Shown here one piece after another: positions 12,938 to 18,360 of a stretch of DNA of 64,000 bases. The notes under the pieces are model-generated. The model made no database searches and was not told the DNA's origin. It saw nothing but the letters and a program-made list of their open reading frames with translations. A program made the translations under genes and the position numbers. The stretch is from Nitrosopumilus sp. K4 (GTDB lineage: Archaea; Thermoproteota; Nitrososphaeria; Nitrososphaerales; Nitrosopumilaceae). The stretch covers positions 1,392,330-1,456,329 of the forward strand of contig NZ_CP067007.1 in NCBI RefSeq assembly GCF_018128925.1, read 5' to 3'. The first letter of the stretch is position 1, and each line of letters opens with the position of its first letter.

Positions 12938-15079
12938 TTAAGGATTTAGAGCAGAATAGTTTTGATTAATTTCATATACAAATATTCCAAGCATAGGTCC
13001 AAATCTTTCTTCATTAAAACCTGATGAGGCATAAACTAGTTTAAAAGGTCCATCATTGTCATAATCAAATTTTATATCTTTTATAAAAATCGGAGTAAAG
13101 CCAGGTCTGAATGTTTCAGATTGTTGTTGATTTTGAAAATTGTGATAAGCAAGGGTTGTAAATGGCGTTAATTTACCTAACAAAGTTTCATTCCAAAAAT
13201 AGTCAGTTCCACTAAACCCATCAGAGCGTAAATATTTTGTCAGAGGTTCTTCTGCAATTCTCATAAACCATTGTTTTTTGGATTCATCTCCACCACCACC
13301 CAAAATGTAAAGGCTCTTTCCTTCATGCTCAACACTTAATTTTTCACCAGAAATAAAAATGACAATATGAGTTGCGCCCATATCATTTAGTAAGCGATAA
13401 GCCTCTTCGGGATTACTAAGTAAAATTTTTGCAATTTTCTGAATTTGTTGTGTGTCGATGGTAGCATTATCTGCCAAGGTGGTTCGTTCTGACATCGTAG
13501 TTATCCAATAACCATAATCCCACCATGATGCAATTACCGCATCTTTAGGAGTGTTTAGTTTTATCCATTCAAGAGTATCCAACCAGTCATTTGTGGCAAC
13601 TTTAAAACTTGTGCCACCATTTAGTATTGTTGCCGGAGTATCACTAACATTTACCCAATTTCCACCAGCTGGATAAGTCAATGGGAATAAAAATAGAATA
13701 ATTACAAATGCAAAAAATGAAATTTTTGGTAGTTTATTTGAGAGGGATGATTTTTTGCTAAGAGAGTTATTTTTGAAAAATTCTTTAGTCAAAATAGATA
13801 ACCCAATTGAAGAGAGTACTATTAATGAAATAGATGCAAAAACTTCCAATCTTACAAATGCAGAACTGACATAGACTCCGGTAATTCCCAAAATAAGTAC
13901 AAAAGATTTCATGTCATTAGTAAGTAGTTCGGTTTTTGATTTGCTTAAAATTATCCAAATCCCTATACCTGAAAATATCAAAAGAGTAGAATGAAAGTAA
14001 AATGATTGCATGATTGTTGTGCTGGCATGTTCAGCTACTGAATCAACTAGTGGGTTTACAGTTGTTAAAAATGGGTTTATGGCATTAAGATATCTAAATG
14101 TAGGCAAAGGTAGAAAGTGTGATTCAGCATTAACTGTTATTGCAACAGAACCAATTATGATAATAGATACTAGTAAGAACAATCCATTTCTTAGTTTATT
14201 TTTTTCTTTACTAATTTTTTGAAGAAATATACATGCAATCATAAAGATAGTTGGAGTTATTAACGAAAAACCCCCTAGACCAAAAACAAAATTTGGACCG
14301 GGTCTTTCAAACATGCCAGTAATGAGAAGAAAAGTTCCAGTAAATAGAGGAATGCACCAAATAAGAAATTCATGATCTTTTCTTACAAAAGGCAATGCTA
14401 AAATGAATATACCTATAGGAATTATTAGAAATTGCATCCCTCCCCATGATGCTAAGCTAAAACTGAGTACTATTCCACTTGAAATTATTTTTAGGAAGGC
14501 AATTTTTTTATTTTCAGATTTTATTCCACTCAAAAAAAGATATAGACCTAAAAGCCCGTAAAAAATTCCTAGTGGTTCAGATTTGAACCATCCAAGAGAT
14601 CCTCTTATTATTATTGGTAATGAAATTGAATAAAGCAATGCCCCAAACAGACCTGCTGATGTACCTGCAAAAATCCTAACTAGTGCAAATACAATAACTG
14701 CTGTAAGAGAACCAATTATCACAGGGAATAATATTGTAAAATCATATAGGTTTGAACCCCCACCAAATATTTGATAGGTTAATGCAGTTGTTATGTGAAG
14801 CATTACTTGTGATGTTGCAGAGATATTTCTTCCATTTGGATACCAACTCTTGTCATCATGCCAATCAAAATATTCTGAGATGCCATTATTTAGAAGAAAT
14901 TCTGTTGCTCTAAAATTAAAAAAAGGATCAAATTCATTTAACTCAAATCCATAGTCTGCACTTTGAGCACGGATTAAGAATGAAATTGAGAAAGATAATG
15001 TCAAGATTCCAATTATCAAAAGATGGTTTAGTTTGAAATCAAATGTTCCAATTTTTACAAGAGTAATTTGTGAAACCAT
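12938..15079 (-). CDS. aglB: Dolichyl-phosphooligosaccharide-protein glycotransferase (STT3/AglB)
   Basis: A 713-residue oligosaccharyltransferase. The N-terminal two-thirds has about 13 transmembrane helices, with an early acidic loop ELNEFDPFFNFRATEFL containing the EFDP (D-x-D-like) catalytic metal motif. The soluble C-terminal domain begins with ASWWDYGYWITTMSERTTLADNAT; WWDYG lies near residue 520 and recognises the Asn-X-Ser/Thr sequon. It moves a lipid-linked glycan onto proteins on the outside face of the membrane, typically the S-layer. I took the ATG at 15079 over a TTG one codon before it. An AGTAATAAC box near 15108 fits a leaderless start. Confidence 0.95.
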   Translation of the reverse strand: MVSQITLVKIGTFDFKLNHLLIIGILTLSFSISFLIRAQSADYGFELNEFDPFFNFRATEFLLNNGISEYFDWHDDKSWYPNGRNISATSQVMLHITTALTYQIFGGGSNLYDFTILFPVIIGSLTAVIVFALVRIFAGTSAGLFGALLYSISLPIIIRGSLGWFKSEPLGIFYGLLGLYLFLSGIKSENKKIAFLKIISSGIVLSFSLASWGGMQFLIIPIGIFILALPFVRKDHEFLIWCIPLFTGTFLLITGMFERPGPNFVFGLGGFSLITPTIFMIACIFLQKISKEKNKLRNGLFLLVSIIIIGSVAITVNAESHFLPLPTFRYLNAINPFLTTVNPLVDSVAEHASTTIMQSFYFHSTLLIFSGIGIWIILSKSKTELLTNDMKSFVLILGITGVYVSSAFVRLEVFASISLIVLSSIGLSILTKEFFKNNSLSKKSSLSNKLPKISFFAFVIILFLFPLTYPAGGNWVNVSDTPATILNGGTSFKVATNDWLDTLEWIKLNTPKDAVIASWWDYGYWITTMSERTTLADNATIDTQQIQKIAKILLSNPEEAYRLLNDMGATHIVIFISGEKLSVEHEGKSLYILGGGGDESKKQWFMRIAEEPLTKYLRSDGFSGTDYFWNETLLGKLTPFTTLAYHNFQNQQQSETFRPGFTPIFIKDIKFDYDNDGPFKLVYASSGFNEERFGPMLGIFVYEINQNYSALNP

Positions 15080-15144
15080 CAAAATTCACACTAATTTGAG
15101 TGGTTATTACTCTTTTGAATAAAATATTGTTAAAAAAATCAGAT

Positions 15145-16809
15145 TTACATTACAGCTTGTGCTGCATCATGGAACATCTGGCTTTTTGCACAGCCAGCTG
15201 CAAGTTCATCACCTGCTCCACGTCTCATAAGACCACGATAGAGGCCATCTTCAAGTTTAACACCTTCACGTTCCTCCCATTCTTCTACGGTGATAGAGTA
15301 TTTCTTTTGGATTCTGTCTCTATACCATTCAGGAATTACATTAAATGCACAGAATGGAACGATTCTAAGGTCTGGTGTCAAATAGTGAATGTCACATCTT
15401 TGTAGTCTTTCCAAGTCTTCATTGTATTTGTCCTGAAAGTGCATCATGCCAAGGAATAATCCCTTTACATGCCATGAACCTACAGCATCAAAGGATCTCT
15501 TCATCAATATATTGCCAAACATCTTTGCCAAATCTAATCCTGCTGGTTGTTTCTTTGTATCTACAAAGCCTTTGAGTTTTCTTACAACTTCAAGCATTGT
15601 AAAGTATTTGTTTTTACCAGAACGAATTTCTTCTGCTTTATCTTCAAACAATTCCAACATTCCTTGAATGTCACAGAATTTTGTTAATGGAACAAACTTC
15701 TTTGTTTCCTCATCTTCAAAGATGTAAGTTCCTGCGCCACAAGCAAAGTGAATTGATAATTCATACTTTGGTTTGCTTGAGAATGCTTCAATTACATTTG
15801 TTAGCGGCATGCAACTTGGTACTGGGAACCAGTCATCAACGGTCACTTCACCATTTGTTTGTTCTTCAATTCTTTGAATACAATCTGGAACTGTGATTCT
15901 GTATTTTTCACGTTCTGATTTACCCATTCTACCAGTTAGTGAAACAGGTTGGAAGTTTACAGCATGAACTACATCCATGTTCTTTTGAGCATATCTAATA
16001 ATTCCACCTAGTTCATGGTCATTAATTGATTTGATTACAGTTGGAACAAACACTACTGTTGTTCCTGTCTTTCTGCAACTATCAAGTGCATATGGAATTT
16101 CCCAATGATTTTTTGGGTTTGTTCTTGCAGTTACACCATCAAATGAAAGATACAAGTTATTACATCCAGCAAGTCTAACTTCTCTTGCTGCTTCAGGATC
16201 CATGGCATGTCTGATACCATTGGTGTTCATTTGTATATGATCAACACCTTCTTCTTTCATAATTTTGATAACATCAGCAATATCGTCTCTGAGCATTGGT
16301 TCACCACCAGTAATTTGCATAGAATTTCCTGGAATTGGTCTTTCAGCTTTCAGAGTCTTCATCATTGCTCTGACTTGCGTATGATCTGGTTCATACATGT
16401 AAGCGCCTTCAAGGCCTTTCTTTACATAGAAAAAGCAATACCAACATGTCAAATCACATCTGTTGGTAACAATCATGTTTGCCAGTCCACTGTGAGACAA
16501 GTGGTTTGAGCACAATCCACAGTTGTTTGGACATGAGCATTTGTCAATCATTACATTTGGGGCATGTGCACCTTTACCATCCATCCAATATGTACTGAAT
16601 TTCTTGTACATTTCATAAGAACCAAAGTACAGTTCCTCACATTCTCCATGAGTTGGACAAATCTTTGACATGTAGACTTTGTTGTCTCTCTCAAAGACTT
16701 CAGCATCCAGAATCATGTTACAATCTGGACAGATGCTTTGTGTGAATCTAATAGTGGACTTCTTTCCTAGACTTTTAGTTGATTGGTTTGAAATTTGAAT
16801 TAATGCCAT
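15145..16809 (-). CDS. tes: Radical SAM tetraether-lipid synthase (Tes/GDGT-MAS, MJ0619-type)
   Basis: A protein of about 554 residues matching the MJ0619/Tes layout: an N-terminal cysteine module (CPDCNMILDAEVFE...KICPTHGE), a second one (CSCPNNCGLCSNH), the radical SAM CX3CX2C in TNRCDLTCWYCFF (about residues 118-125), GGEP, and a C-terminal cysteine region (HFACGAG, PFCAFNV). Tes joins two archaeol-type lipids into membrane-spanning GDGT tetraethers, the hallmark lipids of thaumarchaea. Function by homology is likely, though some relatives are annotated as pterin methylases. A TTATATAG box at 16837-16844 puts the transcript start near 16814, so I prefer ATG 16809 over ATG 16824. Divergent from two regulators. 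Confidence 0.82.
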   Translation of the reverse strand: MALIQISNQSTKSLGKKSTIRFTQSICPDCNMILDAEVFERDNKVYMSKICPTHGECEELYFGSYEMYKKFSTYWMDGKGAHAPNVMIDKCSCPNNCGLCSNHLSHSGLANMIVTNRCDLTCWYCFFYVKKGLEGAYMYEPDHTQVRAMMKTLKAERPIPGNSMQITGGEPMLRDDIADVIKIMKEEGVDHIQMNTNGIRHAMDPEAAREVRLAGCNNLYLSFDGVTARTNPKNHWEIPYALDSCRKTGTTVVFVPTVIKSINDHELGGIIRYAQKNMDVVHAVNFQPVSLTGRMGKSEREKYRITVPDCIQRIEEQTNGEVTVDDWFPVPSCMPLTNVIEAFSSKPKYELSIHFACGAGTYIFEDEETKKFVPLTKFCDIQGMLELFEDKAEEIRSGKNKYFTMLEVVRKLKGFVDTKKQPAGLDLAKMFGNILMKRSFDAVGSWHVKGLFLGMMHFQDKYNEDLERLQRCDIHYLTPDLRIVPFCAFNVIPEWYRDRIQKKYSITVEEWEEREGVKLEDGLYRGLMRRGAGDELAAGCAKSQMFHDAAQAVM

Positions 16810-16848
16810 GCCTACATTGGGCATTTTTCTGAAATACTATATAATGCA

Positions 16849-16872
16849 TTTCACACTTGGCCCCGTGTGGAA
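16849..16872. promoter_or_regulatory. Palindromic operator candidate between tes and trmB-like gene
   Basis: An imperfect inverted repeat TTTCACAC - 8 bases - GTGTGGAA, with 7 of 8 arm bases complementary. It abuts the tes TATA box (16837-16844) at the position where TFB/BRE contacts would be, and lies 23 bases upstream of the TrmB-gene TATA box (TTTAAATAT, 16895-16903). A dimeric winged-helix regulator bound here could control both promoters. The two adjacent regulator genes are the natural candidates. The symmetry is visible; the binding is inferred. Confidence 0.5.
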
Positions 16873-16925
16873 TTTAGGATGTACGCATACCTGATTTAAA
16901 TATCAAAAAGGATCGACTAGATCGC

Positions 16926-17690
16926 ATGAGCATATCTGATAAAACACGCAAGGCACTAGAAAAGATCGGTCTTACAAGTTATGAGATCAGAACTTTTTCA
17001 TCATTGCTTAAAGCTGGGGAATTAACAGCTTCGGATCTTAGTCAGAAATCAGGCGTTCCTTATTCAAAAATCTATGAAGTTTTAGGGACTTTAGAAGATA
17101 AAGGATGGATTGGCTCAGATGACTCTAGACCAACAAAATACTTTGCAAAATCACCAGCAACTGGACTTGAAACTACAAAACAGAAAATGGAAAATGATTT
17201 TTCTCAAAATCAGAGTGTCATTCTAAATGAGCTTGTTCCATTGTATGAAAAAAGTGGTACAAGTGAAAGACCAGATATTTGGGTTTTGTCCGGTGCAATT
17301 AACATTGCAGCAAAAATTTTAGAGATGGTAGAGTCTTGTCGAAATGAAGTAATGATTGCATTACCTCAAGCAGGCGAAGAACTAGTAAAGCAAGCATTAC
17401 CAAAATTACGTTCATTACACGACAAAGGAGTAGAGATTACAATTCTTACCTCCGATAAAATGGATAAAGATTCAATCAAAGCAATTTCTAGAGTTGCAAA
17501 TGTAAAAATCAAAAAAGGGTTATTTGGAGGCGGAATAATTTCAGATAAGAGATATGTTGTAATTTTACTGGGACCTGAAATGGGGGGAGTCAATTCAGAT
17601 CTTGTTGCGATTTGGGCAGATCACGCAGGATTAGCAGGATTTGCAAGACAATACTTTGAATATTTATTAAAAGATTCAAAGAAGGTGTAG
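16926..17690 (+). CDS. TrmB-family transcriptional regulator
   Basis: A 254-residue protein with an N-terminal winged helix (residues about 8-70: KIGLTSYEIRTFSSLLKAGELTASDLSQKSGVPYSKIYEVL) typical of TrmB sugar/metabolite regulators, followed by a phospholipase-D-like ligand domain (ALPQAGEELVKQALPKLRSL). TrmB proteins repress or activate archaeal promoters in response to sugars or other ligands. The TTTAAATAT box at 16895-16903 is 27 bases before the ATG, so translation is leaderless. It is divergent from tes and shares the palindrome at 16849-16872, so autoregulation and control of tes are plausible. The DtxR-type gene follows one base after its stop. Confidence 0.88.
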   Translation: MSISDKTRKALEKIGLTSYEIRTFSSLLKAGELTASDLSQKSGVPYSKIYEVLGTLEDKGWIGSDDSRPTKYFAKSPATGLETTKQKMENDFSQNQSVILNELVPLYEKSGTSERPDIWVLSGAINIAAKILEMVESCRNEVMIALPQAGEELVKQALPKLRSLHDKGVEITILTSDKMDKDSIKAISRVANVKIKKGLFGGGIISDKRYVVILLGPEMGGVNSDLVAIWADHAGLAGFARQYFEYLLKDSKKV

Positions 17691-17691
17691 T

Positions 17692-18150
17692 ATGGACTCA
17701 TTAAATGACGAAAATGAAGAAACACTCTTTGTTGGAACTGCCGAAGCTGAGCATGTTGAAATGTATCTAAAGGCAATTTGGCATATCAAAGAAAGAGGAG
17801 ACGAAGTAAAGATTAGCACAATTGCAAAAATGCTAAACGTTAGACAGCCAAGTGTTGTTCAAATGCTCAAAAAATTAAACGGTCAAAATCTTGTAAATTA
17901 CAACAAAGCAGGAGTTACACTAACTGAAGACGGTGAAAGAATTGGTTCAAGCATGATGAGAAATAGTAGATTGCTTGAAGTGCTTATGGACAGTGCATTA
18001 AAAGTAGAAATTGATGAAGAGATGGTGTGTGGTATTGAACATCATATGAATAAACAATTTACTGATGCATTGTGTACAATGTTAAAACACCCAAGAAAAT
18101 GTCCACATGATCATGAAATTCCTATGGGCGAATGCTGCAAGTCAGCATAG
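17692..18150 (+). CDS. DtxR/MntR-type metal-dependent regulator
   Basis: A 152-residue protein with the DtxR layout: an N-terminal winged helix (VEMYLKAIWHI ... STIAKMLNVRQPSVVQMLKKL) and a dimerisation/metal-binding domain with CGIEHHMNKQFTDALCTML and PRKCPHDHEIP. The Glu, Cys and His residues at the expected primary metal-site positions are present, so Fe(II) or Mn(II) sensing is likely. There is no SH3-like third domain, as in MntR. It starts one base after the TrmB stop and is surely co-transcribed. Metal control of a neighbouring Fe-S enzyme (tes) is an attractive inference. Confidence 0.88.
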   Translation: MDSLNDENEETLFVGTAEAEHVEMYLKAIWHIKERGDEVKISTIAKMLNVRQPSVVQMLKKLNGQNLVNYNKAGVTLTEDGERIGSSMMRNSRLLEVLMDSALKVEIDEEMVCGIEHHMNKQFTDALCTMLKHPRKCPHDHEIPMGECCKSA

Positions 18151-18195: not shown

Positions 18196-18360
18196 ATGGC
18201 ATGTTTTTGTGGCTGTGAGACATATCAAAAAGATGAGAATGGTTTCAAAGTTGCTTGTGTAAAATGCGGTCATGGGCCTCAAAATCATGACGAAGAGTTT
18301 AGAGCAGCAGCAAGAAAGAATGAATCACAGAGCCAAAAACGTGATGCAGACTTTGGTTAG
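18196..18360 (+). CDS. Small cysteine-rich (putative zinc) protein, 54 aa
   Basis: A 54-codon ORF beginning MACFCGCETYQKDENG and containing CVKCGHGPQNHDEEF. The CxCxC near the start and a CxxC plus histidines resemble a compact zinc-binding knuckle. An AGATATATC box at 18167-18173 lies 26 bases upstream of the ATG, the spacing seen for leaderless genes here, which argues that this is a real gene and not the tail of the regulator operon. The C-terminal third is charged and probably disordered. No family is recognised. Its stop directly abuts the convergent YjbQ-type gene. Confidence 0.72.
   Translation: MACFCGCETYQKDENGFKVACVKCGHGPQNHDEEFRAAARKNESQSQKRDADFG

Follow-up and report, generated by a model that had tools for sequence, protein, structure and literature searches.

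A conserved operator-like element between tes and a divergent trmB-type gene marks a candidate local switch for archaeal tetraether lipid synthesis

The locus studied lies in a window of 64,000 nucleotides from Nitrosopumilus sp. K4 (contig NZ_CP067007.1), by which we mean the whole stretch of DNA that was analysed. On its minus strand, the list of open reading frames contains a radical SAM reading frame at 15145-16824, as already recorded in the preliminary description; it comprises tes, the gene of the tetraether lipid synthase (15145..16809; 554 aa when translation begins at 16809, the likely start). Divergently from tes, the plus strand encodes a TrmB-family regulator of TrmBL2 size (16926..17690, 254 aa) and, directly after it, a DtxR-family regulator devoid of an SH3 domain (17692..18150). 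The gene order claimed earlier, tes divergent from back-to-back TrmB-type and DtxR-type genes, was found as described, the families being assigned by NCBIfam and Pfam. Two further genes adjoin. An STT3-type oligosaccharyl transferase gene (12938-15082, minus strand like tes) follows tes at a distance of 63 nt and occupies that place in some Nitrosopumilaceae only (L037, L042). Behind dtxR there is a zinc-ribbon-like gene of 54 codons (18196-18360, plus strand), a relative of which also follows dtxR in genome G300 (L233).

The radical SAM protein matches the NCBIfam Tes model NF045702 over its full length with 693 bits (cut-off 450) and the model of the related TrsS with just 291 bits (cut-off 490). 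It likewise aligns full-length with PDB 7tol, the solved M. jannaschii tetraether synthase (MJ0619), at E 4.8e-124 and with all metal ligands kept. From this alignment and the published ligand list (PMC9433317), three ligand sets were located, C32-X2-C35-X20-C56-X2-H59, C98-X3-C102-X2-C105-X2-H108 and C123-X3-C127-X2-C130, together with the remaining ligands C362/C477/C492 and M461. These residues account for the ligands of the radical SAM cluster, of both auxiliary clusters and of the rubredoxin iron; according to PMC9433317, Tes depends on a rubredoxin-type iron plus three [4Fe-4S] clusters. The Tes/MJ0619 cysteine layout noticed before agrees exactly with these ligands. Because of the family scores and the ligands we regard the Tes assignment as settled: the protein is, by all sequence tests applied, the tetraether synthase it had been proposed to be, and it is predicted to make GDGTs. 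Expression in Methanococcus maripaludis offers a route for testing GDGT formation from archaeol-type lipids (PMC8941075). The window's genome (complete, 1.65 Mb, Nitrosopumilaceae-type) contains a single Tes above the cut-off. The true start of tes is probably its sixth codon, the ATG at 16809, rather than 16824, because the first ATG (16824) comes too near the TATA box at 16838-16845 (~17 nt) and because relatives conserve codon 16807-16809, not 16822-16824.

Pfam detects PF01978 (77 bits) and, partially, PF11495 (31.6 bits) in the protein encoded opposite tes. It is composed of a winged HTH, a long helix and a PLD-fold domain and lacks the sugar-binding C-terminus; the PF01978 HTH and the TrmB-like PLD-fold domain place it in the TrmB family. 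Its predicted structure (pLDDT 86; pTM 0.54, hence with uncertain relative domain placement) is nearest to TrmBL2 (5bpd, E 1.5e-17), next to TrmB (E 4.3e-14) and then to PLD-fold proteins. It falls outside the sugar-sensing TrmB/TrmBL1 group, scoring 80.6 bits against a cut-off of 600 in an alignment that stops at model position 178 of 338. Both PDB and NCBIfam alignments end well before the TrmB C-terminus, which carries the sugar-binding residues (PMC4158304). A ligand-sensing TrmB had been suggested for this gene; TrmB family membership is borne out, whereas ligand sensing is weakened by the TrmBL2 size and by the absence of ~88 C-terminal residues with the sugar-binding part. Aligned orthologs across the phylum keep this size (about 245-265 aa), and among 40 of them the recognition-helix residues P45, Y46, S47, K48 and Y50 are each at least 90% conserved.

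The second regulator (PF01325, PF02742) belongs to the DtxR family by its HTH, its dimerisation domain and its primary metal ligands. The latter, M24, C113, E116 and H117, correspond to M10/C102/E105/H106 of DtxR and are invariant among orthologs. The ancillary metal site (H79, E83, H98 of DtxR) is mostly lost, an alignment with SloR showing S92, E96 and a deletion in its place. Near the C-terminus, C148-C149 is 99% conserved among orthologs. The gene starts one base past the trmB stop and is probably co-transcribed with trmB. At three loci where dtxR is unlinked, read by eye, no adjoining metal-transport genes were recognised.

Next, we examined how the neighbourhood is conserved. Among Nitrosopumilaceae, a divergent trmB lies at most 1.3 kb from tes in 89 of 94 loci (some genomes being sampled twice) and dtxR follows trmB in most. 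This family keeps the whole block tes-trmB-dtxR-yjbQ and further, and such conservation says little alone. In distant families of the same class, where the surroundings are scrambled, trmB remains near tes in 14 of the 16 loci (Tes 60-81% identical, more than 4 kb upstream covered), dtxR in 6, and yjbQ and the M50 peptidase gene in none. Beyond the class, TrmB orthologs turned up at 29 loci, and 16 of these carry a divergent tes no more than ~130 bp away, although Tes identity there is just 35-50%; in the stretches examined, no dtxR match adjoins tes-trmB in the other classes sampled. Since the divergent pair recurs there without a dtxR match, the old linkage is, as judged from gene order, that of tes with trmB, and dtxR joined the module later, in ammonia-oxidising archaea. 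Of the conserved tes-trmB-dtxR neighbourhood that had been envisaged, the tes-trmB part extends into other classes, whereas dtxR is kept less and shows no linkage in the other classes sampled. Families f30 and f50 have the TrmB ortholog away from tes. Four genomes apparently without tes, trmB and dtxR (G042, which is complete, G063, G107 and G160) were not counted as losses; in G063 and G107 the M50 gene next to the block is found at contig ends or on short stretches, and in G042 it is missing as well, so that the segment may be masked or withheld there.

Two TATA boxes are recognised in the control region. That of tes (TATATAAT on the plus strand, 16838..16845, serving the minus strand) is assigned its function by position and shows 97% mean column identity among 58 Nitrosopumilaceae; beside it lies a BRE-like ATTTC (16848-16852, minus strand). 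That of trmB (TTTAAATA, 16895..16902, plus strand) reaches 99% in 58 relatives and, since it stands ~25 bp before the trmB ATG, trmB is probably leaderless. Upstream of both the tes BRE/TATA and the trmB TATA box, an operator-like conserved element of ~30 bp (ATTTCACACTTGGCCCCGTGTGGAATTTAGGA, 16848..16879, with no strand assigned) was found. Across the 58 Nitrosopumilaceae its mean column identity is 85%, below that of the TATA boxes; the tes leader reaches 71% and the right-hand stretch 66%. The control site proposed in the preliminary description, 16849-16872, is part of this real conserved element. Dyad symmetry, at p 0.026 and 0.049, is modest, which counts against the switch proposed below.

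A profile of the element, R1, was used in genome-wide scans whose first pass scored 150 candidates. In the window's genome it yields one site, 16848-16879 itself (37.4 bits, E 4.6e-9), and in G158 it yields none. Among 92 Nitrosopumilaceae tes promoters that adjoin trmB, many of which had served to build the element matrix, 72 score at least 5 bits with it; of 1500 random pieces, none does. In genome G088 (L040), tes occurs twice, as near-identical copies separated by 8 kb; only one of them adjoins trmB, and both carry the same element. The second copy, having the element without an adjoining trmB, counts against the switch model, though it is a recent duplicate.

Outside Nitrosopumilaceae, unsupervised EM on 38 tes promoters produced ACGATTCATAAGGTGAAAAG, with a log-likelihood of 293 against at most 66.7 in 12 shuffles. 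This diverged element, which precedes tes in further families and also in other classes of the phylum, is palindromic with the core TTCA-N5-TGAA; in the other classes it falls in the interval from the tes TATA to the trmB start. The motif attains at least 10 bits in 33 of the 38 TrmB-positive promoters versus 1 of 23 others, most of which, not all, are without a close TrmB ortholog. With model R2, made from the diverged sites, the region between tes and trmB comes out on top in three genomes not used in building it (G413, G497, G364), with modest E values from 0.004 to 0.4; in other genomes the best R2 site is elsewhere, and the Nitrosopumilus form of the element was not detected by the model. 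The Nitrosopumilaceae form has, as read from these motifs, drifted from the others, and its homology with them is argued from position and from intermediate forms, as in genera of Nitrosopumilaceae such as g8 (CCTACTAGACACCAGATGAATAGG); this drift counts against the switch proposed below. A wider regulon was considered and rejected, R1 giving its one site and R2 being weak, with no consistent second target.

Many non-Nitrosopumilaceae carry, in the interval from the tes TATA to the tes start, a second palindrome-like element, about TTACCACT-N3..5-AGTGGTAA (L010, L017, L022, L029, L063-L065, L170, L172, L173, L176, L179, L183, L184, L189). It also occurs directly before trmB in family f18 (L193, L194) and is not present in the window.

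Which of the two regulators goes with the element can be seen in genomes possessing only one of them. In G158, G300, G301 and G302, with Tes 94% and DtxR 81-85% identical and, in G300, the dtxR block otherwise intact, whole-genome searches found no TrmB ortholog, just paralogs of 24-25%, and the tes promoters are without the element. G123, G095 and G196 have no DtxR ortholog by whole-genome searches, yet TrmB and the element are present. In G081, tes and trmB are on separate contigs and the element is kept. One exception, G246 (L016), has a TrmB ortholog with no recognisable element before tes and counts against the switch model. Among the genomes compared, the element tracks TrmB orthologs, not DtxR orthologs, a double dissociation; a point on the other side is that G158 and G300-G302 probably form a single clade, in which TrmB and element were lost together once. 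The tes promoters of this TrmB-less clade (L117, L118, L120) share CTTTAATACCCAC followed by GGTTCGT, which may be a replacement element or just reflect close kinship.

What the sequences show directly is which genes these are, how they are arranged, that the element is conserved and that it occurs together with TrmB, not DtxR. We consider it likely that the module is a dedicated local switch for tetraether synthesis, in which a TrmBL2-shaped TrmB protein works on tes, probably as an activator. We infer that this protein, made head-to-head with tes, would respond to a signal, bind 16848-16879 and set tes transcription, most likely by activation, and that it probably controls its own gene too. 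The TrmB-family regulators reviewed in PMC4158304 activate from a site upstream of BRE/TATA and repress from a site downstream. With the tes BRE/TATA immediately downstream of the element, activation of tes is, by analogy, the better guess. In the other classes its position would repress trmB too. In ammonia-oxidising archaea, dtxR would later have been placed behind trmB in the same operon.

It is unlikely that TrmB acts as a tes repressor, hindering TFB/TBP from beside the BRE until a ligand relieves it. The left edge of the element does overlap the BRE-like ATTTC (16848-16852) in the window and in relatives, where a bound protein could exclude TFB, but a core upstream of the tes BRE/TATA is the activator arrangement of Tgr/TrmBL1 and VNG1451C (PMC4158304). 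Moreover, the element of other classes, with the tes TATA on one side and the trmB start on the other, is so placed that it would serve to repress trmB and not tes. Quite improbable is the notion that the element is a promoter part, either an extended BRE or a proximal element for general factors, and the tes-trmB adjacency passive synteny. True, it begins with five BRE-like bases, and the TATA boxes, as general promoter elements, are still more conserved; yet it is found once in the genome, it is missing from TrmB-less tes promoters that retain a TATA-like box, and the adjacency outlasts the surrounding gene order. Control of tes by DtxR, with the metal-loaded protein on the element tying tetraether synthesis to iron, is highly improbable: a single base does separate dtxR from trmB in the window, in most Nitrosopumilaceae dtxR comes after trmB, its primary ligands M24, C113, E116 and H117 are kept and Tes needs its three [4Fe-4S] clusters and rubredoxin-type iron (PMC9433317), but the element occurs without a DtxR ortholog (G123, G095, G196) and is absent despite DtxR from TrmB-less genomes (G158, G300-G302), a pattern that speaks against DtxR as its binder, little is left of the ancillary metal site (S92 replaces H79 and the H98 position is deleted) and dtxR is unlinked to tes in the other classes sampled. 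The metal or iron link earlier suggested for the tes site lacks support here, as the element follows TrmB, not DtxR, and the deeply conserved pair is tes-trmB alone; a metal role in tes control is not supported.

Local control of tes by the TrmBL2-shaped protein is the reading we prefer. A bolder version, possible and still somewhat doubtful, would make it a hitherto undescribed transcription factor of ancient origin, with tetraether synthesis as its one target and kept together with its operator from ammonia-oxidising archaea to other classes of the phylum, which senses a lipid- or energy-related ligand via the PLD-fold and sets the diether/tetraether balance. The tetraether lipids of ammonia-oxidising archaea underlie the TEX86 sea-temperature proxy. 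In the open-access literature searched on tes or tetraether regulation, titles, abstracts and selected passages reported neither a regulator of the synthase nor a tes-trmB pair. For the question of tes control there is now a specific protein and a specific site, with a clear prediction, and attention moves from iron to the ligand of the TrmBL2-shaped protein.

Tes, TrmB and DtxR are families already known, and the novelty resides in the tes control region. Compared with Tes / GDGT-MAS (MJ0619, Saci_0703, MA_1486), the window protein has the same full-length family match above cut-off and all metal ligands, with no difference among the features tested. The DtxR-type protein shares HTH and dimerisation domains and a DtxR-like primary metal site with the DtxR/MntR/IdeR metalloregulators, but has no SH3 domain, has mostly lost the ancillary site and carries the extra conserved C148-C149. 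TrmBL2 of Thermococcales (5bpd, 5box), the best structural match, has the size, winged HTH, PLD-fold domain and missing sugar-binding C-terminus of our TrmB-type protein; it is described as an abundant chromatin protein on coding and intergenic DNA, whereas the window protein has one conserved candidate site beside one target gene. With TrmBL1/Tgr and its TGM motif (TATCAC-N5-GTGATA), the tes element has in common an inverted repeat, TCA/TGA half-sites and a place upstream of BRE/TATA, as at activated promoters. It differs in half-site and spacing (TTCA-N5-TGAA core) and in its single detectable genomic site, and the candidate regulator differs from TrmBL1/Tgr in lacking the sugar-binding domain and in having a lipid enzyme as its predicted target.
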